64,000 bases of DNA from Ectocarpus siliculosus (Eukaryota; Sar; Phaeophyceae; Ectocarpales; Ectocarpaceae), in NCBI GenBank assembly GCA_000310025.1, contig FN649740.1, forward strand, positions 4,021,774 through 4,085,773, written 5' to 3'. The translations under genes were made by a program, and so were the position numbers. Below are positions 1,181 through 20,198 of the stretch, one piece after another. The notes under the pieces were generated by a model. It was not told the origin of the DNA. It made no database searches and worked only from the letters and a program-made list of their open reading frames with translations. Positions within the stretch are counted from its first letter, which is position 1. Every line of letters begins with the position of its first letter.

Positions 1181-1235
1181 ATCTCCGTAGATCTTGTCCC
1201 ACCCACTAGTAGGCGGGACAAGATCTACGGAGATC
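1181..1235. repeat. Type-A palindrome with ACTAGT core, junction of cassettes 2 and 3
   Basis: Both arms carry GACAAGATCTACGGAGAT inward to an ACTAGT centre. The left arm leads into the 5' intron of cassette 2 (minus) and the right arm into the 5' intron of cassette 3 (plus). The palindrome is therefore a head-to-head joint of two cassettes. Confidence 0.85.
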
Positions 1236-1313
1236 AGTTGTTTTCAAAATAGAGAAACGGGAGAATTGTTATTTTTATTCCCCGCTTGATTTGTATCGCA
1301 CTCTCGCTTACAC

Positions 1314-1385
1314 GCCCTATCCCGCCAGAGCTCGGGACCTTCGCAGCCCTGCAACGCCTCGATATTGGCTACAGCGAGCTAAGCG
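1314..1385 (+). pseudogene. LRR cassette 3, plus orientation, acceptor lost
   Basis: The coding part is a full 72-nt LRR with core LGTFAALQRLDIGYSELSG and a GTGGGT donor. The acceptor dinucleotide reads AC instead of AG (TTACAC before GCCCTATCCC; sister cassette 5 has TTACAG). Splicing into it should be impaired. Confidence 0.7.
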
Positions 1386-1550
1386 GTGGGTCATGGCGCG
1401 CAATAATGGTATTTGTAATAATTTCCAGGATGAATACCACCAACGCATCGGCAGGATTCATGCATTCACCACTTCTCGGCGATGAATCGGCGATGTTCAT
1501 CCAGATCAAGGCCAAAATAAATTGAAACTACTGTCAACATAAAAAGCTAC

Positions 1551-1622
1551 CTGTGAGCCGGTTGGTGGAAAGCCACAGCTCCCGCAGCTCTCGGAGATCT
1601 CCCAGCTCCTGCGGGATAGGGC
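1551..1622 (-). CDS. LRR cassette 4
   Basis: An intact 72-nt exon, core LGDLRELRELWLSTNRLTG, acceptor GTGAAG, donor GTAGCT. About 180 bp of exon plus flanking intron are nearly identical, in inverted orientation, to cassette 9 at 2787-2862. Confidence 0.75.
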
Positions 1623-1678
1623 CTTCACAAAAGATACAGCGGGGGCAATTACAACGGGATTCATTTTTCAATATCATC

Positions 1679-1738
1679 GATCTCCGTAGATCTTGTCCCA
1701 CCCACCCACTAGTAGGCGGGACAAGATCTACGGAGATC
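1679..1738. repeat. Type-A palindrome, ACTAGT core, junction of cassettes 4 and 5
   Basis: A 60-bp palindrome with GATCTCCGTAGATCTTGTCC as outer arm on both strands. It joins the 5' introns of a minus cassette (4) and a plus cassette (5) head to head. The left arm has an extra CCCA relative to 1181-1235. Confidence 0.85.
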
Positions 1739-1815
1739 AGTTGTGTTCAAAATAGAGAGGCGGGTCAATAGTTTTTCTATTGCCCGCTTGGTTTGTATCG
1801 CACTCCTGCTTACAG

Positions 1816-1887
1816 GCCACATCCCGCCGGAGCTCGGGAACCTCGCAGCGCTGCAACGCGTCGACCTTGACGGGAACGTGCTAAGCG
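1816..1887 (+). CDS. LRR cassette 5, intact, plus orientation
   Basis: A 72-nt phase-1/phase-1 exon with TTACAG acceptor and GTGAGT donor; core LGNLAALQRVDLDGNVLSG. It is antisense to the main receptor gene, so it should not be in the minus-strand mRNA unless inverted. Its upstream intron starts with a type-A half-site. Confidence 0.7.
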
Positions 1888-2008
1888 GTGAGTCATAGCG
1901 CACAATTTGGTATTTGTGATCATTTCCAGGTCGAATCCCACCAACGCATATACGGGATTATCCACAGCATCATCAATAGGCAAACACCGCAAAAACATTT
2001 GTTGGTAC

Positions 2009-2080
2009 CTGTAAGCTCGTTGTTTCCGAGCCGCAGCTCCTGCAGCTCGCCGAGAGCCCCTAGTTCCGGTGGGATGTGGC
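2009..2080 (-). CDS. LRR cassette 6
   Basis: Intact 72-nt exon, core LGALGELQELRLGNNELTG, acceptor TTGCAG, donor GTACCA. Confidence 0.75.
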
Positions 2081-2157
2081 CTGCAAGCAGACGGGGGGAA
2101 CAGAATAGCTGAGCGGGACAAAAAAAATAACTCCCCACTTTCCAGAACACACCTACG

Positions 2158-2200
2158 CGTGGACGCCAACTAGTTGGATGCCAACTAGTTGGCGTCCACG
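2158..2200. repeat. Type-B palindrome with doubled ACTAGT core
   Basis: A 43-bp near-perfect palindrome with arms CGTGGACGCCA and two ACTAGT hexamers separated by TGGATGCCA. The sequence on its right (AAACTTCTGTACAGAAAGCG) recurs, inverted, left of the chimeric palindrome at 19512-19553. It therefore belongs to the cassette end rather than to the site. Confidence 0.85.
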
Positions 2201-2284
2201 AAACTTCTGTACAGAAAGCGCGGGGATTTTTCTTTTATCTCCCCTCCGAATCCATCAAATATCATGTTGCGCTCCATAACTCAC

Positions 2285-2356
2285 CGCTTAGCTCGTTGTC
2301 TTCAAGGTCGACGTGTTGCAGCGCTGCGAGGTTCCCTAGCTCTGGCGGGATCGGGC
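2285..2356 (-). CDS. LRR cassette 7
   Basis: Intact 72-nt exon, core LGNLAALQHVDLEDNELSG, acceptor TTTCAG, donor GTGAGT. Its downstream intron shares sequence with that of plus-strand cassette 18, so the two are copies of one cassette unit in opposite orientations. Confidence 0.75.
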
Positions 2357-2427
2357 CTGAAAAATGCGATAGAAACCAAGCGGGAAATAAAAAAACATTA
2401 ACCCGCCTCTCTAATTTCAAGACGACT

Positions 2428-2483
2428 GATATCCGTAGATCTTGTCCCGCCAACTAGTGGGCGGGACAGGATCTACGGAGATC
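2428..2483. repeat. Type-A palindrome, ACTAGT core
   Basis: Left arm GATATCCGTAGATCTTGTCC, core ACTAGT, right arm GGGACAGGATCTACGGAG. It separates cassettes 7 and 8. The arms differ at only a few positions. Confidence 0.8.
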
Positions 2484-2597
2484 GATTGTGAAAATTTAGC
2501 GTACCACGTGAGTATCCATCTCTCCGCGTATACAACGGCGGAACACATAAATAAAGTTGGAGAAAAAAAAGTATTCAAGATTTCATCAGTCTCTCAC

Positions 2598-2669
2598 CGC
2601 TGAGCTGGTTGGAGGACAGGTTGAGCCACGTGAGCTTTTTGAGAGCGCAGAGATGTGCCGGGATCGCAC
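2598..2669 (-). CDS. LRR cassette 8
   Basis: Intact 72-nt exon, core LCALKKLTWLNLSSNQLSG, acceptor CTGCAG, donor GTGAGA. It is close in sequence, exon and intron, to cassette 12 at 18113-18184. Confidence 0.75.
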
Positions 2670-2786
2670 CTGCAGAGAGTAGACATACAAACAAATCACC
2701 CGGCTCTCTTTTTTCGATATATTCAATCTCCGGAGATTTATGAAAATGAATCCCGTTGTAATGCCCCCGCTGTATCTTTTGTGCAG

Positions 2787-2862
2787 GCCCTATCTATCCC
2801 GCAGGAGCTGGGAGATCTCCGAGAGCTGCGGGAGCTGTGGCTTTCCAACAACCGGCTCACAG
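2787..2862 (+). pseudogene. LRR cassette 9, plus orientation, 4-bp duplication
   Basis: An inverted near-copy of cassette 4, but 76 nt long because CTAT is duplicated near the 5' end. That shifts the frame after the phase-1 acceptor. The LRR core LGDLRELRELWLSNNRLTG is otherwise intact. The homology extends into the introns on both sides (about 2745-2930 against 1485-1665). Confidence 0.75.
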
Positions 2863-2948
2863 GTAGCTTTTTATGTTGACAGTAGTTTCAATTTATTTTG
2901 GCCTTGATCTGGATGAACATCGCCGATGCATCGGCGAGATTCATCCAT

Positions 2949-3381
2949 AGGCTTCCCGCAATTGGGCCGCCAAATTCCCAAAAGTGGCTGGGGGGGGGGG
3001 GGGGGGGTCAGGGTGATTCCTAGTCTATTTTCAAGACACATTTGACCCTTGGTTCTCGCTGTGGTGAGCCCGTCAACCTAGCACCGCCCTCGGACGCACA
3101 GGCCTCACAACGTTGTTCCAGCGCCGGACACGGGTTACACACACACCCTTACGCACCGCAGGCCTCTTTCTGCGCCAAGGGCGTGCACACAACCACAGCC
3201 ACTAGATGATTGATACACCTGGCTTGAATAGCACCCACAACGTCACACCAGCGCAAATCTCACCGCATTCCACCCTTTCAAAAAAAAAAACACAAGACCA
3301 CAAGCCACAAGCCTAAGTCACCACAGCACACAGCACTCTCGCGCACTCCCCCTGGATCGACTTCACGTCCGACTCGACCAT
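2949..3381 (+). repeat. Left terminal inverted repeat of the 14.7-kb transposon
   Basis: About 430 bp that pair with 17160-17614 in inverted orientation, at an estimated 85 % identity by eye. It includes a run of 17 G at about 2991-3007 and a stretch of CAGGCCTCACAACGTTGTT. It ends shortly before the TATA box of the first gene. Confidence 0.85.
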
Positions 3382-3403
3382 AGTCTTCAACACAACCAAG
3401 GCC

Positions 3404-3410
3404 TATATAA
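3404..3410 (+). promoter_or_regulatory. TATA box of the Cys-rich transposon gene
   Basis: TATATAA lies about 50 nt upstream of the ATG at 3460, just inside the left inverted repeat. It is a plausible core promoter; the transcription start is not visible. Confidence 0.4.
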
Positions 3411-3459
3411 GTCAACGTGTCGGGACACTTCATGGACATAGTAGTAACACTTTAGGGAC

Positions 3460-6400
3460 ATGTCCGGTATGGCGAATGTCGGGGCGGCTGGGTCCGCCAT
3501 GACGGCAAATTTTGCCTGCAATATCCTTGGGCAGTGCATTCAGGCCGAGTGCAACACTAACCACTGCTGTAGAGATTGCAAGGGACCCGTGCACAATACG
3601 TGCAGCCAGGACCTTAGGGGTGTTGGCGAACCCTCCGAGTTCGGGTTTGCATGCGGGGGAGACATGTGCAAACTCAAGATGACGGAGGAAGAGAAAGCCG
3701 GAGCTATTCGTCACCGCGATGTCGTGCGAGCCCGAGCTGCTGCAGGAGAAGCTGGAACAGAAGGCCCGTGCAGTGCCGGCGACAACTGCGTGGCCAAAGA
3801 AGGTTCGCAGGCTATCGTCACACAATGCCCTCACGGCAATGGGAGGCACTTCGCGTGCGCCCGCGTGGCTTGCTCCCCTGACTGCGGCGAAGGTGGTGAG
3901 TGCACATTGCGCTCCAGACTTTTTTTCTTGTGAGCTGGTTTATTGTGTGTTTGAACAGCAGGGTCTCGGGCATTTTGGGGTAAACGCTACTGCTGTAACA
4001 TCATCGTAGTGGCTGGCGCAAGGGCGCAGGGCTTTGGCACGATGTCTGTCGTTACCGAAGCTAGTCGGGTATCTTAGGTGAAGTGTCCTATACCGTGGAG
4101 GCTTCGAACAGACGGAATGCAAGCGGGTCACATGCACACGATCGGCTAGACATACATGGACTATCTCTAACGGTAGCCTTTTGCTTTTTGAATCAATCGT
4201 GGTCTCTGCTGACCAAGCTGCTGCTGACCCTTGAACACGTCTCACTGGGCACAAAACAGGGTCCGAGGATGAGGGTGACCCCAAGACTGCCGGAAATTCG
4301 GACGCTTGGAAAAACGCGTCTGCCCTTGACAACAGTGAGTCCGTGTAGAGTAGCACGTGTAAAGAATAGCAACGACAGACAAAAACAGTTTCTCCTTCCC
4401 GCGACGCCACAATAAGGCCCGATTCGCCCAGCATGGTTGGAAGGAGATCGGAATCGTTCGCCAGCCAAAGGACGGTCAGCCTTCTAGTGTGAGGCGTTGA
4501 TGAACATGGCAGTCCGCCGATCACGGGCTTCGTTCATTCTCTACTAAGTCGCAATTCCAACGGTTGTGCGCGTGATACATGTGAAAATCGCAGGCGGAGG
4601 TGACGATATCGCTGCCGCCGCCACACCCACCGCCGCACGGCAGAGGACCTCTGCCGAAGGTGAGGTCCAGAGCGCGCCTGTGTCGCGAAAACGCGGAGCA
4701 GCAGTTGCGACCCACATTGTTGTGGTCACTACATCGATGGCCACGGAGTACCATGAAATGCACTTGCACGAGGACATGATGCCGACCACTACCAGTGTAT
4801 GGTGGCACAGCAGTGGTGATGCCTGTCCATATCAGCTACACTTTTTTTACGTGTAGCTTGCGTCCCGTCGCTCCTGGCGCCGTGTGTGTCTACCCATGTT
4901 CGGTCTGTGTATTTGACGTCGATCCCGGGATATATGTCAAGTAGGCGTGTTGAAGTGTTTTTATATACTACTGCTGTTGTATACTGCGTACTAATGTTAG
5001 GCCACTTTGCATCCCTCCATTTGCTTCTTCGCACTTGGTTCTCAGCTACTTCAACGTCGAGCCGTAGGACATCGGGAGAAGGTGTGGGGGCCGGTAGGAC
5101 GATGAGGTTGCGCAACAAGTCCTCCTCTACGCCTTCCAAGCAGGCGGCCACGCCTTCGAAGGCTGGATCTGTCGTCCTGCCCCTGGAAGAAATTAAGTTC
5201 TGCATCGCCGACGCCTTGACGCACGCGTTCGGAGACAAGAAGATCGTCGGTACTTTGGTAGACAAGATGGCAGGGACTGCGAGCCAAGCGAAGGCCATGA
5301 GCGCAGTAATGACAGCCATCACTGCCAACTCCAGGGAGTTCATTACTGCCGCCAAGGAAGCCGGCAAAGAAGCATGCGCCCAGTACTTGAAGGCACCCCT
5401 CACAGACTTAGCCAAGGCACAGGTGAGGCACGGTATTGATATTGGGTGCATAGTTTCGAGTTCCATCTCTTAGAGTTGTTTGGTGCAACCGGCGCATTTA
5501 AGAAACAAGTATGTAGGCGTTGGCGTACGCGTGACAAGGGACATGAATCAACGACCTGCCGAAATACCCATGAACACGTACCAAATATCCCGCGTAACCA
5601 CCCCCCGAATGCGTCCGTAGCACAAGAAAAGCCTCGAGAGTATCCCGTGGCTACATCCCCGACAATATTTGTTTTTTTTTCATCTCACCTCGGTTGTTTG
5701 TTTTCGTTATATAACCCCCCTACCTACCACAATGCCCCGGTGCGTATTTTTATTTAAACGATTTCCATCCGCCTCGTGTAGTGGGTGGTCACAGCATGGG
5801 AATTTATTTGCTAGTTGCCAACTCTGCTGTACCATGTTGCTGTAGCTGCTGATGGTGCTGCTCGTGCAGTGATTTGGTGAGGTCTGCAACGAACGGCCGG
5901 CAAACAGACCCTCATGGACATGTGTACATTCTTGTCTCGGCCCTGTGAATCGTGTTATCTTGCCTGTGACACAGACGGACGCTGCCAACAAGTGGAAGGA
6001 CAACTCCGTCGAGGCGGCAACCAAATGGAAGACCACCGCCCAAGCACTCGCGAAATCTTCAGCACAGGTGACGACCAATGCGTTTATGTCGTGCGTTGAC
6101 TAACGGTTGCGGGGTCTGGTGACGGTTATTCTGGTAATACTCTTTAAGCACAGAAATCCCTACAAGGCGATGTTGTGGGAAAATCCTTCGACCTCCACAC
6201 CTCGGGCAGGACGTTGACGGTAGGGCAAGACGAGTGTGTTGGTCTACTGACGTATCACACTCTCGTGCTTGGGCATTTTGTTAAAGCTCTACCCAAAACC
6301 ACCCTTCCTGTCTGGGATCAAGGACGTTGTGTCCTTCCAGGATGCCCCCTCGTGGACAAAAACACGTCCGTTGCGCCCAAAAATATGAAAATGCGGGGCG

Positions 6401-8424
6401 ATGTTTCCGTTGGTTATTCCTCTTCGCCCGTCATTACCTACGAGTTCGTCCCTCATGGAATTTTGCGTAATGCATGTGGATGTGTGGGGGTACATACAAC
6501 TGTTTATGTTTTTTCGTTGCGGATTTTGGCAACACTGCTGTTATTGCTGCTAGCATTGGCTGTTATTGGAAGTGCTGTGCATGTCCGGCGTTGTGGTTAC
6601 CCGCGCGGGAGGTACGTGTGGCAAATGATTTATTTTTCCATTGAAGGTCCCCCGAACCGCAGATTTGGTGACCTGTCGCATCATTCCAGAACGTAGCCGC
6701 GCGAGTCCTGAGGACGGATCTGGAGAACGTACCCGTAAATACGAAAAATCGGTCCCTAGAAGCTGTGCTCGGGAGGAAAGCCGCATCTTTCTCCGGCTGC
6801 CTTGGACTTTTGTCATTCGCCAACCGAAGACTGATGTGGCACCTATGGCATATTCCTCATTACTCGTCCGCCCCCCAACAACATGTCGTGCCGCCTGCCC
6901 AAACCGCGTCCGTAGAAAAGCACTCCGCAGGTGTCAGACGCCAAGCTGACCGCGGCAGCCAAAGCCGGCGTCATGGCCAACAACGAGGCACTGATGACCC
7001 TGGTGAAGACCGAGGTCGCAAGTCAAGTACTGCAGCTGAAGACGGGCCTGGAGGCACGGTTGACTGAGATGGAGAGCAGCGCGAAAGCCGACCAAGAGAC
7101 GCGTTTTGGGTCGCTGTTCACCAGCATCCAAAGCGGCTTGACGAACGCATGCGAGCACATCACCGGGGTCGTGAAGGAGAACGGCCGCCAGCTCGACGAG
7201 TGAGTGTTGATGTTTGTTCCTGGAGTGTTTTCGGGGCACCCCACACAAGGGTGGGTGATGCCCCCGCAACGAAGTACCCGATTCGTTGTTCTAGACCTTC
7301 CGGGTGTATGTGGGTGTGCGGCATAAGTTTTTTGTTGTTGTTGTCGTTGTCTACGTGAGTGTTCTGGGAAAGAGGTCGACGAGGGCACCGTTGCGTGCGC
7401 CGCCTTTGGTTTTTGACTCTCCGAGTCGCGAGTAAGTGTTCCGGCTTAGTCGGGTCTTGGGCGTCGTTGGTTAGGGAAACAAGTGCTCCGACAGCCACCC
7501 CATACCCCTCTAACCCCTCCTTCCAACGCTCCAACCCCCCTCTATTTAACTCTCCGCCTCCCGTCCATTCGATCCTCCGCTACGCATCTGCCAAAAACCC
7601 ACAGGAGCATTTCGGGCAACAAGAGAGGCCCCCCATCCAAGACTCCATCGCCGAAAAGGCGCAGTCCGCGTGAGCACGAGGCTACGCGGAGGAGGTGAGT
7701 AATTTGGTTGTGGCCCGTCACCTTTTTCTCCGTCGCTGACGCTTTATAGCATCCACGCAGCCACCGCAAATCGTAAATCAAGACGAGGAAGGTTAGGTTG
7801 TAAAAAGTCGGACTGTCTCTCTTCGTTGGTTCCATTTCGAGAGCTGGTGATACGTTGCAAAGTACCCGCGGATAGACTCAACACCCGCTTCTTTCTGACG
7901 CGTGTCCTGCGTTGTCGTGATGGTGCGTGTCCAGTGACGAACGTGAAGAGGCGACGACGCATGGGGCTCTGGCGACGGTGGATGGTAACACGTTAATGAA
8001 GATAGCCGCTGCAATGGGCACCGCTTTGTCGCAGGGCAACGCCAATCAAGCACGTGTTTCCGACCAGGCCCACAACAACGTCATGGCTCAAGGCACCCAG
8101 TCAATGGGGGGGTTCGTGTCGGTGCCACACAACATGATGCAGGCCCGGGGGGCTGGTGCTTCCACGATGGCGATGATGCAGAACCAGGGGGCGGGTGCGT
8201 CCTCGATGAGGATGATGCCGACCCAGGGGGCGGGGGCGTCGTCGATGGGGATGATGCCGACCCAGGGGGCAGGGGGGTCGTCGATGGGGATGGGTGCACC
8301 CACACAGCGGATGGGTACACCCTCCCAAGGTGCCACCAACCAGAGTGGCTATATGCAGCTTTTCGGGCAACAGAACAACGACCTCAATCAGGGCAATGGC
8401 TATCCTCCCTTCCGATTTAACTAG
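3460..8424 (+). CDS. Transposon gene A: Cys-rich N-terminus, Ala/Lys helical middle, Met/Gln repeat C-terminus
   Basis: Ten exons can be chained in phase: 3460-3895, 4260-4336, about 4593-4661, 5046-5422, 5975-6067, 6154-6219, about 6691-6730, 6930-7199, 7605-7694 and 7935-8424. The N-terminus (about 140 residues) has some 18 cysteines, including CNTNHCCRDC, CGGDMCKLKM and CSPDCGEGGEC, and probably binds zinc. An acidic linker and Ala/Lys-rich helices follow (for example TDAANKWKDNSVEAATKWK). Then comes a basic PSKTPSPKRRSPRE stretch that could be a nuclear localisation signal. The C-terminus repeats MMPTQGAGASSMG four to five times and ends GYPPFRFN. No family recognised. Its position just inside the left inverted repeat suggests a DNA-binding accessory protein. 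The exon at 6691 is the least certain. Confidence 0.6.
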
Positions 8425-9677
8425 GTTGACGATATTTCTGAGCATGCCGGTCAAACGCTTTTGGTTTTTAGTCGATCGCCAAACGGCCCGCCTCAAGGGG
8501 GACGCCTCAAGGGGGTCCTCGTTTTGCGAAGGAAAGTGCAGTCATTTTGGTGTTTTTGTGAGGCGGGTGTGTGTTGTCCTTTTTTTTTACGAGGGGGGGG
8601 GGGGGGTTGCGCGTTTTTAAATTTCGCAATCCNNNNNNNNNNNNNNNNNNNNNNNNNNNNNNNNNNNNNNNNNNNNNNNNNNNNNNNNNNNNNNNNNNNN
8701 NNNNNNNNNNNNNNNNNNNNNNNNNNNNNNNNTAGACTACAAGAAAGAAAGAAGAAGGGGTCGCCATTGGCAGAGGGGGGGGGGGGGGGCGTTTAGGAGT
8801 CGGGGGACGATTTATGTATGCCGTTTGTGTATCCTCTCGTCTATGAAAACACAGGACAGGGCAGGTCAGCTTTCTTCGTGGTACTGGTAGTGGTGGGTTG
8901 TCGTGGTTTCATTTCTTGTGTGGGTACGTGGGCACCCGATACAACGAGTGTAGATCGTTCTAATGTCAGGTGCCAAACGACCCTCGGCGTCGTTGATTGT
9001 GTTGTTCTGTTTTAAGTATCATATCTGCCCTCGTTGGTATGACAGCAGTCGTTGGTATGACAGCAGGCAACAAACGACGCGCAACATCTATCTGCACATG
9101 GTAAACCAGAGTGTAGTAAGGAGAACTGCGCACACTCGCACCAGTGGCGATTCAGCGTCAGGCACTTGTCTCTGTCTACGCTTGTGACGAGGTGGCTTAC
9201 ATCCAAGTTGCGAGCCACCGAAGTTGTTGACCTGTCTCTCCTAACACACGACTTTCGACTCGTGCGTGTAGAAGACATGATCAATGCTTCGAATAATATT
9301 GCAGCAGTGGAGCAGCTGCTTTAAAATAGGGGGTGCTGCCGCGCCCTTGCCGCCAGTCAGTACATGACGTACGACATGAGGTGCGTGGCATCCACACCCT
9401 CGATAGTCTCGGGGGAGCCTGACAAGCACGCTGTGGCAGCTGGCCAATCCTCTGCTGCGGCACCATCCTCCACTCGCCACACGGGCCGAAGCGACCATCC
9501 TACATCCTACTCCGGTCTCCAAAAGCGGCCCCGAACAGCCCGCCGTTGAATTTTTTTTTGCCTTTTGCAACACAGAGACCGGTCCAATCGCATGCTCGAA
9601 CTTGGTCCTTTTTGGGGACCTCTCTCCCATCTCCCACTCCTCTCTGTCACTCCCACGCCCTCTTTCCTTCAGTTGGG
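8425..9677. other. Intergenic stretch inside the transposon
   Basis: No gene seen. It contains the assembly gap, G-runs on both sides of it, and a 17-bp tandem duplication (CGTTGGTATGACAGCAG) at about 9030-9066. The upstream region of gene B would lie here. Confidence 0.5.
8633..8732. other. Assembly gap, 100 N
   Basis: Exactly 100 N between G-rich homopolymer sequence, a conventional fixed-size gap of unknown true length. It falls after the stop codon of gene A. Confidence 0.95.
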
Positions 9678-12600: not shown

Positions 12601-13984
12601 ACGGTTCATGGGAGAAGTGAACAAACTCGCCGGCGAGGGCTCGCGGCTCTGGTATAGATCGCTGCAGCGGGTGTTGGACATGGGGAACCTCAGCAGGTTT
12701 TGGGCCGCTCCGGCAGCGGGGGGCATTATGTGGATTGGGACTAGGTGAGGCGCACGAAATGCACCCCGCCTGGAAGGAGGATAGGCATATACTGCTTCGC
12801 GTTGCCGTCATATTGTTTCCGGTGTGTGTTCTAACGTTATGTTTTGATGTTCGGATTACTTAGATGGAGTATGCTTGATCTAGTCCCGACGTACGATTCG
12901 ACGGTGACAGCCCAGCATATTGCCACCCGGGCCTGTGTGCATCATGCGCACACGTACTTTCCGTTGCATTCGTGCTTTTCTGCCTTGACCATGTTTACAA
13001 CCGTGTAGATGTTCCCGTCGGAATGACGATGATGCCAGCATCGTACACAAAACAAGTTACCCTCTACGATACTCGAGGGACAGACCCGGTCCCCCACGTG
13101 TTCTTGCCTTGTTTCCCCGCACGTCATGACGGTGCGGTACGCTGCATTTCGTTGACTTTGTTTTCGATCGTTGCCTGCTCCGTCAGCAACGTTGTAGTGG
13201 AGATTAAAAACTCGAAAATGAAAGACTGCGCCTAACAACCTTCCCATCCCGATGAAATCATCTCCAACTGATAACACACAGCGCGGGCGCCTCCTTCTCG
13301 GCCGACAAGGAGTACCGCGTCCGCATCAAACTACGAGTGGAAGAAGTGGATGAGAGCGCACCCCCGACGGAGCAAGAAGAGAAGGAGGGGGAGGAAGAGG
13401 AGGAGGTCGTGGGCAATGACCCGCGGTCGGCGCAAACCCTGGTAGCCCTGGAGGTCATCGCGGCTCTCTGCGAATGTCCTGCAGGCATTAAGGGGGGGTG
13501 CTCCCACGCCGCCATGGCGCTGTTTTTAGGTAGACTGCTCCAGATGTCTGAAGAACAGCTAGTCACGTTCAATCCTACCACGTGTACGGGAATGGCATGC
13601 CGCTGGATAATGCAGCATGGCAAGGGTTCTCGATCGGCCAAACAGCAGTGCGAGCTATACGGCATGAGTATGTCGGTAGGAACCACGGTCGTCCGGAGTG
13701 TTCGGGACCCGAAAGGGAATGTAGGATGGGACGACGACAAACAAGTCCACGCGAGTGGGGTTCCACCCATAGATCGAATGAACCAATTCAACCCGCATCC
13801 TACCGGGGGAATGTGGGCCGCACGCAATGTGCACTTCGATGCTGGCGAGGACATCAGCAAACTCAAGAGGGACAAATTAATGGCGTTCGTAAATCACGAG
13901 AGGCGATCGGACCACCAAGAGGTGTGCCTGGATTATCTACCGTCAAGAGTACGCGAAGAAAACAATTCTGCACACTGTGGGTAG
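9678..13984 (+). CDS. Transposon gene B: FEN1/XPG-like nuclease fused to a SAP-like motif and a SWIM zinc finger
   Basis: Exons chain in phase at 9678-10784, 11167-11483, 11675-11722, 12338-12744 and 13282-13984, giving about 860 residues. The N-terminus has the flap-nuclease acidic residues in order: VIVDGG (D32), VFDGRPPPAKSG (D82), APGEADPQ (E156, D158), ANDSDLTVLG (D181, D183) and VGNDFAKFKNVGP (D270, then a helix-hairpin-helix-like segment). Next are a basic linker, a SAP-like motif (WTVPKLREFLS, split by an intron), a helical region and, in the last exon, an acidic stretch followed by the SWIM motif CECPAGIKGGCSHAAMALF. One frameshift near 10545-10570 separates GNDFAK...VDTES from LLPFDAVVGYLASRLL; no intron fits. 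Start chosen at the Met before GFNSLSRL; an upstream in-frame extension is open. Likely role: DNA processing during transposition, replacing the YqaJ nuclease usually joined to SWIM. Confidence 0.7.
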
Positions 13985-14852
13985 CCACGTTGAAAAGTGC
14001 TTGCGTGTGCATTCGTGAAGTGATTCTGTGTATGTGGCGGGCGGGGGTCGTGGGTTGCTGTAGTTGTCACGACCCAAGCTGGGGCGTGTTTCTCTCTTGC
14101 CCGGAGGGGAACTTGGTGGAGGAATGCGGTACAAGAGGAGGGAGGGGGGCGGAGGGGGGGGGGGGGGGGAACCTTTTTTTTTTTTATGGATTTAGGCTAA
14201 TTTTGCACCTGGGCCTGCCTGGGGATACAACATGGTGTTTTCCGCTACGAAGTATGTGTTACTCTCGTCTTGAAACCCTTTGACACCGATTCTACGCTGT
14301 GATGCGAATACCCCGATGCCTAAAATACAACGTTACAAAAATCGACGACAGGTTGCACTCTTCAACCCCAATACCCTATTCTTCGCACTGTGTCGCACGG
14401 GGAGCCAGCAAGATGCACGAAACCTCTAACATGGCACCGAAACACGGGGTTCGGTTGTGCCAAGCCCTAGGCAATATACAGTTCGATGAGGTCGTCATCC
14501 TAGGCGTCTTCCCGTTTCCCGTGTTAACATTCGCACGCTCGCTGTTCGCCGCGTTACCTTACGTCCCACGAGGACAGCACTGACGCTGCAAGAGATTCAT
14601 CTTGTTCCGTCCCCAAGGAAATTCCAGACGCGATAGTCTAACTCCAACATAAGGATGTCCAACGTTCACGAGGGTTACCAAACAAAGAGTGTTCCGTCCG
14701 AGGCCTGGAAACAACCGATGCAAGTCATGGGCCGGTATGCCGTTCACCAACCCAACACTACGCCCGAAAAAAGAACTCGTTTCTCAGCAAAAAAGAAACA
14801 ACTCTAAACTCCAACAGGAGATGAAGAAAGAAATAAGAGAAGACTAACAAAT
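13985..14852. other. Spacer between convergent transposon genes B and C
   Basis: No coding signal seen. It contains a G-run at about 14153-14170 followed by a T-run. The two genes converge here, so polyadenylation signals for both should lie in this spacer, but I could not pick them with confidence. Confidence 0.4.
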
Positions 14853-17143
14853 TTACTTATCGCTCTTGAACGGCTGCTGAATCATGTTTACTAGAGCTGC
14901 AACCACATGGAAGCACATCTCCAAGTGATCGAGTTGCTTATGGTTGAATCTCTTGTCGACGATGCTCCACTTCTTCATGGCCCCGATTGCCCGCTGTACA
15001 TGAATGCGCAAATTCGCTACCTTCCAGTTGGATTCCATGTCGGCTTCAGTGAACTGCTTCTCCTTCTGCCGCTTGTAAGGGGGCGCCACGTACAGGAAAC
15101 CTTCCTCGATCAACAACGGCGACAAAGAATTGAACCCCTTGTCCGCCATGACCATGAGGCCTTCGTGATCAAGACCATTGTCCCTCATGGCGTCGACAAG
15201 ACCAGACGCCTTTACAACCTCAACATCGGACATCCTACCGGGATACGCGGGCCCAATGTAACAAATCGCACCCCCAGGGGTGACCGCGACAAGTAATTTC
15301 GCCGTCTGTCTGCCCTTGTACGTGGAATATGTGATCCAGTTACAGTCAGTTTGCCAAGACCTGCAAATTTCTATCTCAGTGGCGTCCAGAACTAGAACAC
15401 ACTTTGCATACCCATGATCGACAAAGTTCTGCGGGACGAACTCGTCCACCTCTGCTAAAGTAGGAAGCCGAACCAAAGGCCGAAGACTACGCCAAAGGAA
15501 GTTTAACCACGTCGTGAACGCCCTCCCCCCGGTAGTGGACACCAAACAGGGCCGATGCCACCACAATCGGCGTTGCGGTGCGCAGGATCATCAAAGTGAA
15601 AAAAAGTCCGTTCACTCCCCGAAATATCTTTCGCCTCTGCTCAACCCTTGTCCCGTCTGCTGTTATCCCGCCTCCCTCTCGCTGGTCATAGAACACCATA
15701 TTCTCCGCCTGACCCTCAGCATCCAGGAACTCGTACAACTTCTGCAGGCGGTGGCACGTGGGGTGATGACGAAGATGCGACAAAGGTAGCATTGCGGGTA
15801 TCAGCACATGAAAACTATTTGCATGACTCGGGTGACAGTAGATATCACATGAAATATTATGACTGCATCCGACTGGCGCGGAGTCTTCGTGACCTTTCGT
15901 TGCCGTTAAACGAAACACGAACCCTCCATTTTCCCAACAGAAGAGCAGCAACAGCAGCAGTCACCCTATAGAGGCGAAAAACAACAAGGGTCGATCCGAA
16001 CTCTGCTAGATTGGTAGCGAAATCAATACAATGGAAGGAACTTACATACCGCACTGCCGCGCTATCTCATGCTCGACGAGAAATATGTCACTATGGCCTT
16101 TTATGTCAAGAACAACGATGTACGCGCTGCTGTATGCATGACAATGTATGCATTCTTCAGCAGCGGTCATTGGAGCATATGCTTATTTTACAACTAACTG
16201 CTGCTGTGTCGGCGGCATGCAGTAATGTGGCGTGCTCGTCGCTTGCGGAACTGGCCGGTTTAGAGAGAGACAGAGCGAGAGACAGAGGGAAAGAGAGGGA
16301 GAGAGAGGGAGGGACACATGGGCAGAGAGCGACAGAGCGATTGACAGAGAGAGAGAAAGAGAAAGAGAGAGAGAGAGAGAGACACACACACACAGCGAGA
16401 GCCAGAGAGAGACGGAGAGTCGTGCAGCCGGCCGACCAAGCAAGCAAGTGCTAGGACCTACAAACATGTATTGACCAAGCAAGTGCTAGCACATATCCTA
16501 CGTTACGGACGGTCTTGGGTACTCTGATTACACGCACAAGCCTCAGAACACTTACCTCGAGAGACTCATGGTCCCTGAGACCGACGAGGGAGCGAACTCC
16601 CACAGGCTGTACAGAACGCAGTAAGTTGTGGTCGATCCCAATCACACCAGGGGCTGTTCCTGCCGCGTCCTTTGCACTCCTCTCGTTCTGCTTCGCTTCC
16701 TTAAGCTCCGCCTTCAGCACCGAGATGCGTAGCCTAAGCTTCCTCGCCTCGCCATTGAGTCGTCGCTGTTCCTCGTTGTCATCCAGCAGTGCTGCCCTGT
16801 ATCTTGTCACCAGAGCATCGGACTTCCGACTCCTTGCAAGGGCACCCCTCGAAGCATTGAACATTTCGTCGCTTGACTGGTCTGGCAGAGCTCCATCTTT
16901 AACCCTTACACCCAACGTACTACCATCCACCGAGTTGATAGTGTTCTCGGCTTCCAGGCTCCCAGGTGGGAAGTGAGCAGCGGAAATCCTTGCGTCGCGT
17001 ACTGGCCTCGGGAGGTCGCTCCGGCCGAAAAGGGCGTGGCACCAGCTTGCTCTCTTCTCAGGGTCAATCGGCATCCGTATGGTTGCGTGTCCGCCGTCTA
17101 CTCGGCAAAATTCAGTATCACAGACGCACTTGTGGTTCCCCAT
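14853..17143 (-). pseudogene. Transposon gene C: THAP-like/HTH/DDE transposase, frameshifted, catalytic Glu changed to Gln
   Basis: Exon 1 (17143-16556) starts MGNHKCVCDTEFC. It has a THAP-like pattern ending DARISAAHFPPGSL, where the usual third Cys before the His is missing, followed by an Arg/Glu-rich coiled coil. After a GTAAGT donor, exon 2 starts at 15741 in phase 0 (KLYEFLDAEGQAENMVFYDQ) and leads into a helix-turn-helix (SALFGV / TTGGRAFTTWLNFL). That motif is split by a one-base frameshift at about 15535-15550. The DDE_Tnp_4 domain follows: VLDATEIEIC (first Asp), YSTYKGRQTAKLLVAV, MADKGFN (second Asp). The third acidic residue, expected in a VERAIG-type motif, is Gln (HVQRAIGAMKKW; CAG codon at 14994-14996). 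Stop at 14853. Probably inactive. Confidence 0.8.
16263..16405. repeat. GA-rich microsatellite in the transposase intron
   Basis: An interrupted GAGA/GACAGA run with a short (CA)n at its right end, within the intron between the two transposase exons. It gives spurious Arg/Glu or Ser/Leu open frames. Confidence 0.85.
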
Positions 17144-17159
17144 CGGGGTGTCGGTCGCA

Positions 17160-17614
17160 GCAATCGAGTCGGATGTGAAGGCGATACCGGAGAATACCGG
17201 AGAGAGTGGGTGTGGATTGCTGCCTTGGTGCTGTGGTTGCTGTCGCTGTGGCTTGTTGTGGCTTGTGTTTTTTGTTTTTTGTTTGAAAGGGCGGAATGCG
17301 GTGAGATTTGCGCTGGTGTGACGTTGTGGGTGCTATTCAAGCCAGGTGTATCAATCATCTCGTGGCTGTTGTTGTATGCACCCCCTTGGCGCAGAAAGTG
17401 GCCTGCGGTGCGTAAGGGTGTGTGTGTAACCCGTGTCCAGCGCTGTAACAACGTTGTGAGGCCTGTGCATCCGAGGGCGGTGCTAGGATGATGAGCCCAC
17501 CACAACGAGAACCTGGGGGCAAATGTGTCTTGTAAATAGACTGGGAATCGGCCTGACCCCCCCCCCCCCCCACAGCCACTTTTGGGAATTTGGCGGCCCA
17601 ATTGCAGGAAGCCT
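17160..17614 (-). repeat. Right terminal inverted repeat of the 14.7-kb transposon
   Basis: Inverted partner of 2949-3381, including the C-run at about 17559-17571 and the outer GGCCCAATTGCAGGAAGCCT. The transposase start codon at 17143 lies immediately inside it. Confidence 0.85.
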
Positions 17615-17665
17615 ATGGATCAATGCTAGAAAAAACTAAACCGACCATCACAATAAAATAGGTGC

Positions 17666-17737
17666 CTGTGAGGTGGTTCTCGCTGAGCCGCAGCCACTGC
17701 AGCTGTCGGAGATCTCCTAGCTCTGGCGGGATGTTGC
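17666..17737 (-). CDS. LRR cassette 10 with a GC donor
   Basis: A 72-nt exon, core LGDLRQLQWLRLSENHLTG, acceptor TGGCAG. The donor reads GCACCT rather than GTACCT as in its direct duplicate, cassette 15 (18657-18728). It may use a GC-AG intron or be weakly spliced. It is the first cassette right of the transposon. Confidence 0.7.
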
Positions 17738-17855
17738 CTGCCAGACGAAGGGAAAATAAGAAGTGGGCGAGAGAAAAACGAAATTAATCCCCCCGGCGTC
17801 TAGAAAAACGATCCTGCCAACGCATACACGGGATTCATCCTGCACGACTTCTCAC

Positions 17856-17927
17856 CGGCCAGCTGGTTATTCGAAAGATAGAGAGACTTCAGTGCCTCGA
17901 GCTCTCCCAGCTCCGGGGGAATGGGCC
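17856..17927 (-). CDS. LRR cassette 11
   Basis: Intact 72-nt exon, core LGELEALKSLYLSNNQLAG, acceptor CTCCAG, donor GTGAGA. A truncated near-copy is at 18316-18358. Confidence 0.75.
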
Positions 17928-18018
17928 CTGGAGCGAAGTGCAAGCAGGAATTCAGCGGAAATTGAGAGGGGGGAAACATAAAATTTCCCGGCTTCTAGAA
18001 AAGCAGTTACTCACACTT

Positions 18019-18045
18019 AATGGACGCCAACGCGTTAGCGTCCAT
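18019..18045. repeat. Palindrome, type B arms with ACGCGT core
   Basis: AATGGACGCCA, core ACGCGT, then TAGCGTCCATT. It shares the GGACGCCA arm of the type-B sites, but the centre is ACGCGT instead of ACTAGT. Confidence 0.8.
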
Positions 18046-18112
18046 TCACGCGGTGGCGGGGCACAAAATATGTTCGAGAAAAAAAAGTATTCAAATGTCA
18101 TCAGTCTCTCAC

Positions 18113-18184
18113 CGCTGAGCTGGTTGATGGACAGGTCGAGCCGCGTGAGCTTATTGAGAGCGCCGAGCTGCGCCGGGATCGCAC
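18113..18184 (-). CDS. LRR cassette 12
   Basis: Intact 72-nt exon, core LGALNKLTRLDLSINQLSG, acceptor CTCCAG, donor GTGAGA. Sister of cassette 8. Confidence 0.75.
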
Positions 18185-18256
18185 CTGGAGAAGAGTAACA
18201 CATTAGCGGGGGATATAGAAATAAATCACCCGGCTCTCTTATTTCAATATCACCGA

Positions 18257-18300
18257 TCTCCGTAGATCTTGTCCCGCCAACGCATACACGGGATTCATCC
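18257..18300. repeat. Chimeric junction: type-A half joined to type-C half
   Basis: The left side is GATCTCCGTAGATCTTGTCC (type A). After CGCCAACGCAT it continues as ACACGGGATTCATCC, the right half of the type-C palindrome family. It is no longer self-complementary. Confidence 0.8.
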
Positions 18301-18315
18301 CGCACGACTTCTCAC

Positions 18316-18358
18316 CGGTCAGCTGGTTATTCGAAAGGTAGAGAGACGTCAGTTCGTG
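18316..18358 (-). pseudogene. LRR cassette 13, 5'-truncated copy of cassette 11
   Basis: Only the C-terminal part remains (LTSLYLSNNQLTG plus a GTGAG donor). The sequence diverges from cassette 11 abruptly at about 18358. No acceptor. Confidence 0.7.
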
Positions 18359-18464
18359 GGTGAGTAGGTGTTAAGGAAGCGATCGGCTGAACATTTCTCT
18401 AGAAGGCGGGACATTTTTCGTGCTTACCCCCGCTGAATAAATAAGTCTCGTCTTTTCGCTGCAG

Positions 18465-18536
18465 GTGCCATCCCAACGGAGCTGGGGAGCCTGGCAGCAG
18501 TGCAAAAGCTTTACCTCGGGTGCAACCAGTTGAGCG
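18465..18536 (+). CDS. LRR cassette 14, intact, plus orientation
   Basis: A 72-nt exon, core LGSLAAVQKLYLGCNQLSG, acceptor CTGCAG, donor GTGAGT; antisense to the receptor gene. Confidence 0.7.
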
Positions 18537-18568
18537 GTGAGTATCTAAAATTTTGTGATCGAATTTTA

Positions 18569-18604
18569 GGATGAATCCCGCCATCGCATTGGCGAAATTC
18601 ATCC
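18569..18604. repeat. Type-C palindrome
   Basis: GGATGAATCCCGCCA and TGGCGAAATTCATCC form arms around TCGCAT. The flanking CATGGACCAATGC shows the uninserted state of the intron that received the 14.7-kb transposon at 2949. Confidence 0.8.
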
Positions 18605-18656
18605 ATGGACCAATGCTAGAAAAAAATTAAGCCGACCATCAATGTAAAAAAGGTAC

Positions 18657-18728
18657 CTGTGAGGTGGTTCTCGTTGAGTAACAGCAGCTGCAGCTGTCGG
18701 AGATCTCCTAGCTCTGTCGGAATGTTGC
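18657..18728 (-). CDS. LRR cassette 15
   Basis: Intact 72-nt exon, core LGDLRQLQLLLLNENHLTG, acceptor TGGCAG, donor GTACCT. Exon plus flanks (about 18600-18800) are a direct duplicate of 17615-17810. Confidence 0.75.
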
Positions 18729-18891
18729 CTGCCAGACGAAAGGAAAATAACACGTTGGCGGGAGAACACAAAAATTAATCACCCGGTGTCTAGAAAAACG
18801 GTCCTGCCAACGCATCGACGGAATTTCATGTATACATCAATATTTTGTTCAAAAGTCGAAACAAATTTCAAGCCCGATCTGAAGGACTCAC

Positions 18892-18963
18892 CGTCTAACT
18901 TGTTCCAGCTGAGGTCCAGGATCTCCAAGGTGCTTAGATCTCCTAGCTGTGGTGGGATGGGTC
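18892..18963 (-). CDS. LRR cassette 16
   Basis: Intact 72-nt exon, core LGDLSTLEILDLSWNKLDG, acceptor TACAG, donor GTGAGT. Confidence 0.75.
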
Positions 18964-19028
18964 CTGTAGATCGGGCATCAAAGCATTTTATTGATATCCG
19001 AAATAACATAGGTTGATTATAGACACGC

Positions 19029-19072
19029 GATCTCCGTAGATCTTGTCCCGCGCACTGCATACACGGGATTCA
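19029..19072. repeat. Chimeric junction: type-A half joined to type-C half
   Basis: GATCTCCGTAGATCTTGTCC followed by CGCGCACTGCATACACGGGATTCAT. Same kind of A/C hybrid as at 18257-18300, at a different cassette boundary. Confidence 0.75.
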
Positions 19073-19097
19073 TACTACACTTGAACAAACAACTCAC

Positions 19098-19169
19098 CGG
19101 ATAGCTGATTACTCCGAAGATTGAGCCATCGCAGCGCTGTGAGCTTTCCCACCTCCGGTGGGATGGCCC
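19098..19169 (-). CDS. LRR cassette 17
   Basis: Intact 72-nt exon, core VGKLTALRWLNLRSNQLSG, acceptor GTGCAG, donor GTGAGT. Confidence 0.75.
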
Positions 19170-19232
19170 CTGCACGCAGAAGAGTTGTCCGAACACGGGG
19201 GAATATATTACAATTGCCCGCTGGCTTTTGTC

Positions 19233-19270
19233 GATCTCCGTAGATCTTGTCCCGCCCACTAGTTGGCGTC
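19233..19270. repeat. Chimeric half-site junction left of cassette 18 (A-left / B-right)
   Basis: Type-A left arm GATCTCCGTAGATCTTGTCC, core ACTAGT at 19258-19263, then the type-B arm TTGGCGTCC. It forms a pair with the B-left/A-right junction at 19512-19553. Confidence 0.8.
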
Positions 19271-19347
19271 CTCTTGAAAATCGAGAGGCGGGATAATATT
19301 TCTTGTTTTTTTGTCGCGCTTGATTTGTATCGCCCTCCTGCTCGCAG

Positions 19348-19419
19348 GCCCCATCCCGCGGGAGCTCGGGAACCTCGCAGCGCTACACGACCTCAGCCTT
19401 GGAAACAACGAGCTAAGCG
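19348..19419 (+). CDS. LRR cassette 18, intact, plus orientation, inside an opened palindrome
   Basis: A 72-nt exon, core LGNLAALHDLSLGNNELSG, acceptor CTCGCAG, donor GTGAGT. With its flanking introns it makes a 259-bp unit (19264-19522) lying between two ACTAGT hexamers. The outer sequences are the two halves of a type-A palindrome and the inner ends are type-B half-sites. Confidence 0.75.
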
Positions 19420-19511
19420 GTGAGTTATGGAGAGCAACATGATACTTGCATGATATTTGCAAATTCGGAGGAGACAAAAGAAAAATCCCCGCGCTTTCCG
19501 TACAAAAGTTT

Positions 19512-19553
19512 CGTGGACGCCAACTAGTTGGCGAGACAAGATCTATGGAGATC
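19512..19553. repeat. Chimeric half-site junction right of cassette 18 (B-left / A-right)
   Basis: Type-B left arm CGTGGACGCCA, core ACTAGT at 19523-19528, then a diverged type-A right arm GAGACAAGATCTATGGAGAT. Reciprocal to 19233-19270. Confidence 0.8.
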
Positions 19554-19623
19554 CGTTGTCTTGAAAATTGAGAGGTGGAAATTTTTTAATTTCCCCCAGC
19601 AAACATGTGATACTCGTCTGCAG

Positions 19624-19695
19624 GTGCGATCCCTGCGCAGCTCGGCGCTCTCACTACGCTCATGGTGCTCAACCTGTCCGACAACGAGTTAGATG
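19624..19695 (+). CDS. LRR cassette 19, intact, plus orientation
   Basis: A 72-nt exon, core LGALTTLMVLNLSDNELDG, acceptor CTGCAG, donor GTGAGT. Confidence 0.7.
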
Positions 19696-19784
19696 GTGAG
19701 TCCCGGAGATCGACCGTGAAATATTTTTTCGACTTACAAGAATGATCCGCATTAACCTCCCGCTGTCTAGAACATCGGTCACGC

Positions 19785-19917
19785 GTACTAGGCGAGTACA
19801 AAATTTCACAATTGCGGAACTCGCGGGACATCTTTTGCTACGCGTTGGCGTCCGTGGGTGCGTAGGCGAGTACGAAATTTCACGATTGCGGAACTCGCGG
19901 GACATCTTTTGCTACGC
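19785..19917. repeat. Two type-D elements in tandem
   Basis: Two 58-59-bp copies (19785-19843 and 19860-19917) of the element at 912-969, in inverse orientation to it, separated by GTTGGCGTCCGTGGGT, a type-B-like arm. Confidence 0.75.
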
Positions 19918-19958
19918 ATCGGCGGGATCATCTTGGAAACTTGAACTAAATTACTTAC

Positions 19959-20030
19959 CAGTTAGTTCGTTCGCCCGAAGGTCGAGGTACTCCAGTACGG
20001 CGAGCCGTCCAACCTCCACGGGGATGGGAC
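19959..20030 (-). CDS. LRR cassette 20
   Basis: Intact 72-nt exon, core VGRLAVLEYLDLRANELTG, acceptor TTGCAG, donor GTAAGT. It is the first minus cassette downstream of the N-terminal exon. Confidence 0.75.
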
Positions 20031-20123
20031 CTGCAATCGGAAGAGACAGAACGAAAACACAGTACCCATAATGTAGCGGGAAGAATCAAAGCTAAATACC
20101 CCGGCTTCTAGAAACACCTAGGA

Positions 20124-20198
20124 GTCCCACGAGTTCCGCAATTGGGAAATTTCGTACTCGCCTACGCACCCACGGACGCCAACGCGTTGGCGTCCGTG
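20124..20198. repeat. Type-D fragment fused to an ACGCGT-core palindrome
   Basis: 20124-20167 is a truncated type-D element. It runs into CACGGACGCCA, core ACGCGT, TGGCGTCCGTG (20171-20198), a perfect type-B-like palindrome. A cassette (21) begins about 90 bp to the right. Confidence 0.75.

Follow-up and report, generated by a model that had tools for sequence, protein, structure and literature searches.

In V(D)J recombination, pieces of receptor genes are cut and joined at short signals, and the joints show small irregularities. Bacterial shufflons, DNA invertases and integron cassettes form arrays of interchangeable pieces that are inverted at short sites, and the serine invertases act on a 2-nt staggered core. 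The lamprey VLR system holds arrays of leucine-rich-repeat (LRR) cassettes in both orientations, and these supply a receptor, being copied into a single gene by gene conversion. Introners, like other DNA transposons that make introns, are intronic mobile units with short inverted ends. Brown algae, it has been proposed, could arrive at an adaptive-like immunity by shuffling the exons of their receptor genes, and LRR exon shuffling was described for their genes of the ROCO and LRR types (Zambounis 2012, cited after Teng 2024, PMC11378527). PMC11378527 states that neither a site-specific recombinase (in its discussion) nor a somatic recombinant has been reported, and its main text, as far as available, gives no joint, end signal or orientation, the strings 'palindrom', 'inverted' and 'transpos' occurring 0 times. 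Joints of the kind described below were not found in the titles and abstract starts of the literature searched; an earlier description in Zambounis 2012 is possible.

The window, a stretch of 64,000 nucleotides from Ectocarpus siliculosus, lies within an LRR gene read on the minus strand, one of the candidate immune-receptor genes of this brown alga. The sense direction was taken as minus because of the strand of the N-terminal cap exon (Table 1). The exons of the window's family are 72 bp long, of phase 2 and carry one LRR each, as do the shuffled exons of the same organism group in the available part of Teng 2024. They sit in blocks of ~230 bp (cassettes), present in both orientations and composed of a 5' arm of ~90 bp, the exon and a 3' arm of ~68 bp. 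Across 21 stretches, 182 exons with the pattern AG..72 bp..GT and an LRR were collected; a stretch had to hold at least 3 exons, and at least 2 once split, to be kept, and the stretches do not equal 21 genes, as the window array, C5 and C134 were counted twice each. As to the ROC-COR domain of ROCO genes, the sole COR-A match of an intron-blind search was on C17, away from the LRR loci, the C-terminal gene parts being outside the study. ARAGORN found no gene in a tRNA-like stretch near position 700.

Table 1. Exons and joints of the window (positions count from its first base; -, minus strand; +, plus strand)
Feature	Position	Strand	Remark
N-terminal cap exon of LRR gene	21218..21394	-	sets sense direction
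LRR exon, sense	19959..20030	-	
LRR exon, sense	19098..19169	-	
LRR exon, sense	18892..18963	-	
LRR exon, sense	18657..18728	-	
LRR exon, sense	18113..18184	-	
LRR exon, sense	17856..17927	-	
LRR exon, sense	2598..2669	-	
LRR exon, sense	2285..2356	-	
LRR exon, sense	2009..2080	-	
LRR exon, sense	1551..1622	-	
LRR exon, sense	1051..1122	-	
LRR exon, sense	88..159	-	far end of array
LRR exon, antisense to gene	1816..1887	+	
LRR exon, antisense	18465..18536	+	
LRR exon, antisense	19348..19419	+	
LRR exon, antisense	19624..19695	+	
LRR exon, antisense	20286..20357	+	
Joint, spacer GC, F1 / C-type halves	968..969	.	profile score 23.0
Joint, spacer TA, A/A palindrome 1181-1234	1207..1208	.	palindrome scan
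Joint, spacer GC	1445..1446	.	
Joint, spacer TA, A/A palindrome 1679-1738	1710..1711	.	palindrome scan
Joint, spacer GC	1946..1947	.	
Two called joints, GC 2157-2158 and TA 2186-2187, palindrome 2158-2200	2157..2187	.	
Joint, spacer TA, A/A palindrome 2428-2483	2455..2456	.	palindrome scan
Joint, spacer GC, C/C palindrome from 2910	2928..2929	.	palindrome scan; absent from preliminary description
Joint, spacer GC	17822..17823	.	
Joint, spacer GC, B/B palindrome from 18019	18032..18033	.	palindrome scan
Hybrid joint, A half and C-type half, spacer GC	18282..18283	.	
Joint, spacer GC, imperfect C/C palindrome (18569)	18586..18587	.	
Joint, spacer GC	18812..18813	.	
Hybrid joint, A half and C-type half, 3-nt spacer TGC	19056..19058	.	
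Hybrid joint, A half and B-like half (F15), spacer TA	19260..19261	.	
Hybrid joint, B half and A half, spacer TA	19525..19526	.	
Joint, spacer GC, B/B palindrome	20184..20185	.	palindrome scan

Neighbouring cassettes meet at a joint composed of a half-site, a spacer of 2-3 nt and an inverted half-site, about TCYCGCSNAY-NN(N)-RTNSGCGRGA. The 5' and 3' cassette ends carry RTNSGCG in common, so that terminal inverted repeats are present, of about 10 bp only. A profile of the joint recognised 184 of them in LRR loci totalling 71 kb, as against 1 in control DNA (69 kb in 7 stretches, from which C16:1714000 and C19 were left out) and 1 in shuffled sequence at score >=12; two loci beyond the training set of the profile gave 17 joints for 12 exons. 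Of 156 inter-exon intervals (gaps >600 bp excluded), 114 held exactly one joint, 24 none and 18 two, and a single joint fell inside an exon. The half-site families also keep a fixed spacing to the exon: 89 bp for F5 in 7/8 direct cases, and 63-65 bp for F3 in 11/19. Half-site A had 66 matches at <=3 mismatches as against 3 for the reversed pattern. By comparison of coordinates, 50/50 matches at <=2 mismatches were in or beside LRR arrays, which speaks against the same chimeras existing in unrelated sequence; at exactly 3 mismatches, 7/16 were outside arrays or jointless and look like chance matches. The bare 16-mer CGCCNACNNGTNGGCG, tried as a generic palindromic signal, occurred in 40 places as compared to 15 for its reversed control and was rejected. 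More than half of its 40 places are outside the LRR loci; therefore the core alone is not specific and the arms matter.

The preliminary description had taken the palindromes at the cassette joints as fusions of interchangeable half-sites with a symmetric 6-bp core. In the 5.2-kb array, seven palindromes reached a score of >=10 (1181, 1679, 2158, 2428, 2910, 18019 and 20164); shuffling 30 times gave 0.03 on average, and a single control stretch of 5.2 kb gave none. The whole window was also scanned, at a higher cut-off. Six of the seven sites named there as symmetric are among the high-scoring ones, and the seventh, 18569, is too imperfect, although it is a real joint. The four sites named as hybrids (18257, 19029, 19233 and 19512) were all recovered, and the equality between the flank of 2158 and the inverted flank of 19512 is visible in the sequence. 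The B half assigned to 19233 agrees with that of 2158 and 19512 over about its first 10 bases and differs in the remainder, being a half of family F15, and site 2158, described as single, contains two called joints 29 bp apart with a third TA core between them by eye. At the break, a spacer of 2-3 nt between AY and RT takes the place of a fixed 6-bp core; the centre of site 19029, for example, has 7 bases, ACTGCAT. Both halves belonged to one family in 14/84 typed joints and to different families in 70/84 (100/184 joints were dropped because at least one half was unclustered). Since most typed joints are hybrids, the palindromes are a special case, a by-product and not themselves the signal.

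Homology between cassette copies ends at the spacer. Among 607 pairs of homologous ends from different joints, position 1 inside the cassette agreed at 0.924, the partner's at 0.471 and the background at 0.509, so the breakpoints are not scattered along the arms. Among 97 pairs of same-cluster copies, 185/194 ends were flush; identity was 0.92 over the last 5 bases inside and 0.51 over the first 5 outside, with 0.47 for unrelated cassettes. Homology on both sides of the breakpoint was not found, the outside identity being close to that of unrelated ends. A genome-wide BLAST search with one cassette (query 41-265) and its 40-bp flanks listed 17 other near-full copies, of which 8 began at query 39-41 and 14 stopped at 263-276, and the two neighbour cassettes of the query matched elsewhere independently. 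At the joint 20184..20185, 90-91% identity with the flanks of two C476 loci begins (20184 and 20201). Breakpoints were taken from exon-containing matches, as the initial approach was swamped by exon edges, and for about 28% of 778 BLAST breakpoints the nearest called joint was >40 bp away. Joints that resemble each other on either side (only 10 pairs among 194 joints) were excluded from the single-base test and from the spacer-rule test.

The spacer follows a simple rule, in which two T-type ends are separated by TA, two G-type ends by GC and mixed ends by TGC or TAC. It was obeyed by 156/169 typed joints and broken by 13/169, after 15/184 joints with one end of neither type had been left out. 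TA was found in 24/26 TxT joints, GC in 97/103 GxG joints and a 3-nt spacer in 36/40 TxG joints (18 TGC, 17 TAC and 1 TCC), and like-with-like ends were in excess (p=1.3e-7). Two inverted half-sites around a 2-nt core, GC or TA, as expected of a serine recombinase or invertase, occur in 125/194 joints. On the other hand, 40/169 joints pair a TA-typed with a GC-typed end and so lack the identical cores that serine recombinases require. End type agreed in 358/466 pairs of homologous ends from different joints (0.77 as against 0.61 expected), and in one of two 100%-identical cassette pairs one end differed. Because end type travels with the cassette only partly, cassette ends can change type.

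Cassettes are joined in random orientation. The 113/184 joints flanked immediately by an exon to the left and to the right (71 were dropped) comprised 60 tandem, 29 head-to-head and 24 tail-to-tail cases, which fits 2:1:1 (p=0.65). Exon regions were intact in 56/82 antisense and 105/112 sense cases (p=4e-6), and silent segments are thus not kept intact; 4/21 stretches without gene direction were dropped here, exon-like regions needed at least 3 BLAST matches, and directions were set by hand. The greater decay of antisense blocks is an argument against frequent programmed flipping, which we rejected for this reason. Loci rich and poor in joints had no significantly different share of antisense exons (p=0.52).

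We consider it probable, with some reserve, that the cassettes were broken and joined site-specifically at their end signals by a putative enzyme over evolutionary time. LRR exons travel as discrete cassettes of ~230 bp, both ends of which bear the same kind of short inverted signal, about RTNSGCGRGA inwards. Double-strand cleavage at this signal may leave 2-nt cohesive ends, TA or GC. Heads and tails could then be joined in any combination, within a locus or between loci. Like ends would pair fully and give the 2-nt spacer; unlike ends might pair via one wobble position, with fill and repair giving three nucleotides (T-A-C or T-G-C). In sense, a joined cassette would add one LRR in frame, one joined in antisense would be ignored by splicing and then decay, and a palindrome would arise when two ends of the same family meet. 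The cassettes, their fixed ends, the breakpoint at the spacer, random orientation, the spacer rule and recent movement are results of the analysis; cutting and joining of 2-nt cohesive ends is what the spacer rule leads us to infer, and the joining pathway and the dedicated or borrowed origin of the enzyme are likewise deduced. The earlier proposal that the palindromes are end-to-end joints of cut and rejoined ends is supported within these limits: both conditions that would have refuted it, breakpoints spread along the arms and chimeras in unrelated sequence, turned out in its favour. Several results count against our reading, namely the intervals with no joint or with two, the BLAST breakpoints far from joints, the exceptions to the spacer rule, the changes of end type, the equal antisense share of joint-rich and joint-poor loci and the scant domain matches for an enzyme. 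Because cassette copies exist in many places, plain conservative cut-and-paste is insufficient and a copying step is needed.

The cassettes could also be non-autonomous DNA transposons of small size, with terminal inverted repeats of ~10 bp, that insert into existing joints, the spacer being a target-site duplication. The inverted end motif common to both ends, the discrete sizes and the spread of copies over many contigs and both strands all agree with such an origin. So do a two-ended module of 52 bp that lacks an exon and resembles a minimal element, and an element inside the window's array that seems to have a 2-bp duplication. Pure duplication should however give equal spacers in each array, yet at least 9/21 stretches hold both TA and GC spacers, and the two sides of one-exon cassettes, where equal duplications would be expected, often differ in spacer class (among 118, 17 were G/T, 42 G/G and 4 T/T). 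Nine single-cassette comparisons with an empty site (P-X-Q vs P-Q), too few to decide, included six with GC throughout, which agrees with a duplication although GC is the commonest spacer, and three that do not agree with one. The TGC/TAC rule is also left without a reason, and we find this origin rather unlikely. Microhomology or template switching at the common, partly palindromic motif of ~22 bp, without a site-specific enzyme, appears less likely again. The motif does provide short homology in both directions, and agreement between homologous ends is lower at positions 3 (0.67) and 8 (0.73). But with crossing over inside the motif, breaks should be dispersed over ~10 bp to either side, whereas the first base by the spacer follows its own arm (92%) with the partner near background, and the type of the ends governs spacer length.

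Exon shuffling of the classical, intron-mediated kind, in which similar introns undergo homologous recombination, seems very improbable. Arms of the same family are alike, but neighbours share little homology beyond the motif and random orientation is not expected; it was ruled out by the lack of identity outside the breakpoints. Two TPR receptor loci, with direct repeats in one orientation among the matches listed, do look like its product, and in them (10.2 kb) no joint scored above 8.1. Nearly negligible is the explanation that the palindromes are a miniature inverted-repeat element of introns and the joints incidental: the A/A palindromes do resemble a hairpin element of ~55 bp, but the fixed exon distances of F5 and F3, the preponderance of hybrids and the position of all A halves at <=2 mismatches in or beside LRR arrays led us to reject it.

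As compared to V(D)J recombination, site-specific joining of these cassettes, as read from the assembly, would likewise involve receptor pieces cut and joined at short signals with irregular joints, but both ends are of the same kind, most spacers are rule-bound and 2-3 nt long, and the product is fixed in the assembly. Unlike shufflons, invertases and integrons, the joints lie in eukaryotic introns, joining between loci is free and non-matching cores are tolerated. Unlike in the lamprey VLR system, every locus is provided with an N-terminal exon and every cassette with splice sites and fixed ends, and unlike in introners the mobile unit includes the exon and both half introns. A bolder and doubtful possibility is a dedicated, still active brown-algal system, in which a recombinase would read the 10-bp end signal, cut to 2-nt cohesive ends and rejoin LRR cassettes within or between loci in either direction, with inversion turning exons on or off; it would be an independent eukaryotic counterpart of V(D)J or the shufflon, acting in the germline and possibly the soma. 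For an enzyme, intron-blind searches gave no more than one partial match to the resolvase domain PF00239 (31.9 bits) and one match to the tyrosine-integrase domain, both barely above the cut-off.

The joints suggest a mechanism for the long-noted exon shuffling of brown algae. They offer a definite signal, a breakpoint resolved to the base, a predictive joining rule and a list of very recent moves, and the question of exon shuffling in brown-algal receptors becomes directly testable. If true, the movement of single exons as exact units would be unusual for a nuclear genome. Cassettes have indeed moved recently: C26 and C4 share a 227-bp cassette with 100% identity, on opposite strands and with a different spacer on one side, and a 246-bp cassette is 100% identical between C476 and C477.

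The leucine-rich-repeat (LRR) loci of E. siliculosus are composed of cassettes of about 230 bp, each a 72-bp LRR exon between a 5' and a 3' intron arm, and two cassettes meet at a joint, i.e., a half-site, a short spacer and an inverted half-site. The joints were surveyed in 21 LRR stretches (71 kb, 182 intact exons). Similarity breakpoints were obtained from BLAST, the motif not being consulted, and a half-end profile was seeded near these breakpoints and then refined; the end motif, inwards from the joint, is about R T N S G C G G G A. Joints were called as two profile ends facing away from a spacer of 0-5 nt with a score of at least 12, and 184 were present in the LRR loci versus one in 69 kb of non-LRR DNA (seven stretches) and one in shuffled sequence. 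Two LRR loci fetched later and held outside the training contained 12 exons and 17 joints with 0 joints inside an exon, and their nine intervals carried exactly one joint in six cases, two in two and none in one. Two receptor loci of the NB-ARC/TPR type in this genome (L059 on contig C6 and L060 on contig C2) showed direct repeats in one orientation among the matches listed, and the joint score never exceeded 8.1 in the 10.2 kb scanned of them; therefore shuffling may work differently in the LRR and the NB-ARC/TPR receptor families.

Every site named in the preliminary description was present in the window array, where seven palindromes scored at least 10 in 5.2 kb versus 0.03 in shuffles. Six of the sites described as symmetric reached this score; the one at 18569 was a joint, yet it fell under the cut-off, and the palindrome at 2910 was new to the list. 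The hybrid joints were as described, except that the core at 19029 had seven bases and the B-like half at 19233 belonged to a different half-site family.

Exactly one joint was found in 114 of 156 inter-exon intervals, none in 24 and two in 18, and the joint-to-joint segments held one exon in 118 cases (median 237.5 bp), none in 32 and two or more in 19. The median arm length was 90 bp on the 5' side and 68 bp on the 3' side, and the distance to the exon was kept within half-site families, being 89 bp in 7/8 direct cases for F5 and 63-65 bp in 11/19 for F3. The ends were flush in 185/194 among copies of one cassette. When one cassette together with its 40-bp flanks served as the query against the genome, a further 17 nearly full-length copies were listed, and both strands were represented; the cassette occupied query positions 41-265, and among these 17 copies eight started at 39-41 and 14 ended at 263-276, the remaining starts being at 4, 14, 30 (three copies), 34, 37, 45 and 53. 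An exonless module of 52 bp with a joint at either end, which resembles a minimal cassette, occurred nine times, eight times at 52 bp and once at 53 bp.

Homology between cassette ends stops inside the spacer. Identity was determined per position from the spacer in 607 pairs of homologous ends sitting in different joints, and at the first five positions it was 0.924, 0.952, 0.667, 0.776 and 0.982 inwards along the own arm. On the partner side it was 0.471, 0.952, 0.260, 0.567 and 0.786, close to the values of unrelated ends at the same positions (0.509, 0.946, 0.254, 0.582 and 0.815). The looser BLAST breakpoints (n = 778) agree less precisely with the loss of homology at the spacer: 22% were within 3 bp of a joint versus 4% of eligible positions, and for 28% the nearest called joint was over 40 bp away.

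The side of the cassette is irrelevant to joining, and the 113 joints flanked directly by exons on both sides comprised 60 tandem, 29 head-to-head and 24 tail-to-tail cases (p = 0.65 versus 2:1:1). The families F0, F1 and F2 met 11, 8 and 9 named families, respectively, their own included; same-family (palindromic) joints made up 14 of the 84 typed, and only 10 joint pairs among 194 joints were alike on both sides. The base adjoining the spacer defined an end as type T or G. The spacer was TA in 24/26 TxT joints, GC in 97/103 GxG joints and three nucleotides long in 36/40 mixed TxG joints (TGC 18, TAC 17, TCC 1), a rule followed by 156 of 169 typed joints and broken by 13. The 3-nt spacers of the held-out LRR loci (GTA 3, GCA 1) were of the same classes as those of mixed joints. 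Like ends were joined to like above expectation (p = 1.3e-7), and the end type was common to homologous ends in 358/466 pairs versus 0.61 expected.

The best supported mechanism is one in which DNA is broken and joined site-specifically at an end signal that is symmetric. Judging from the spacer grammar, the cassette ends would be 2-nt cohesive ends, of which TA/TA and GC/GC would be paired over two bases and TA/GC over one base only, as a wobble whose repair to either base would yield TAC about as often as TGC. The main rival is transposon-like insertion with duplicated spacers, but this predicts a single spacer per array, and TA and GC were mixed in at least 9 of the 21 stretches; microhomology switching at the shared motif predicts breaks spread along the motif, and none such were seen in the end-pair comparison. 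The resolvase and tyrosine integrase domains searched for had one match each, barely above the cut-off. Shuffling of 72-bp phase-2 LRR exons is already known in brown algae, and site-specific recombinases are unreported, according to the main text of PMC11378527, in which the strings 'palindrom', 'inverted' and 'transpos' have 0 occurrences. Such joints were not found in the literature searched by title and the start of the abstract, a scope to which Zambounis 2012 did not belong.

Cassettes have moved recently: a 227-bp cassette was 100% identical between contigs C26 and C4, on opposite strands and with a different spacer on one side, and a 246-bp cassette was 100% identical between C476 and C477. 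Opposite strands were found in 52/97 same-cluster cassette pairs. In the 17 stretches with a gene direction, intact exon regions accounted for 105/112 sense versus 56/82 antisense copies (p = 4e-6), so the sense copies are constrained and the antisense copies are decaying. This decay speaks against frequent programmed flipping, and a slow or occasional return of antisense copies to sense is possible. Stretches rich and poor in joints did not differ in their share of antisense exons.

The typical cap exon in the window lies on the minus strand and sets the reading direction of its gene. This N-terminal LRR cap exon, the mark of a large gene family, matched at 67 places in the genome searched (189 Mb, 492 contigs), including the window (C15:4021774-4085773). 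With the window's spliced LRR peptide as the query, 'Hypothetical leucine rich repeat protein [Ectocarpus siliculosus]' (P0029) was among the 120 best of 1662 matches. The annotated P0029 takes in five sense exons of the C476:472-478 kb locus in order (477010, 476135, 475664, 475452 and 474663), and comparison of the annotation with the exon list showed that the antisense exons between them were left out. The flank beside the window array shared 90-91% identity with those of two C476 loci and started at a joint or close to one, in the manner of a constant region bordering on a variable array.

Coordinates of features in the window and of the exonless module
Feature	Location	Strand	Remark
tRNA-like stretch	window 656-773
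Element with inverted ends	window 2947-17617		14.7 kb
XPG_N-like ORF	window 9546-10724	plus	in 14.7-kb element
DDE_Tnp_4 ORF	window 14853-15566	minus	in 14.7-kb element
C476-like flank	window 20184-21674		beside array
Typical LRR cap exon (N-terminal)	window 21218-21394	minus
52-bp exonless module	C234:44473-44524		similar in C15_2427321, C476_514394, C477_53404 and C234_43500 stretches

The tRNA-like stretch had an 86.6% match in C114; ARAGORN detected no tRNA in it, and it is possibly a SINE. The 14.7-kb element splits the array, has close partial matches in C131 and C114, and by eye shows an apparent 2-bp AT duplication in CC-AT-GG at both flanks.
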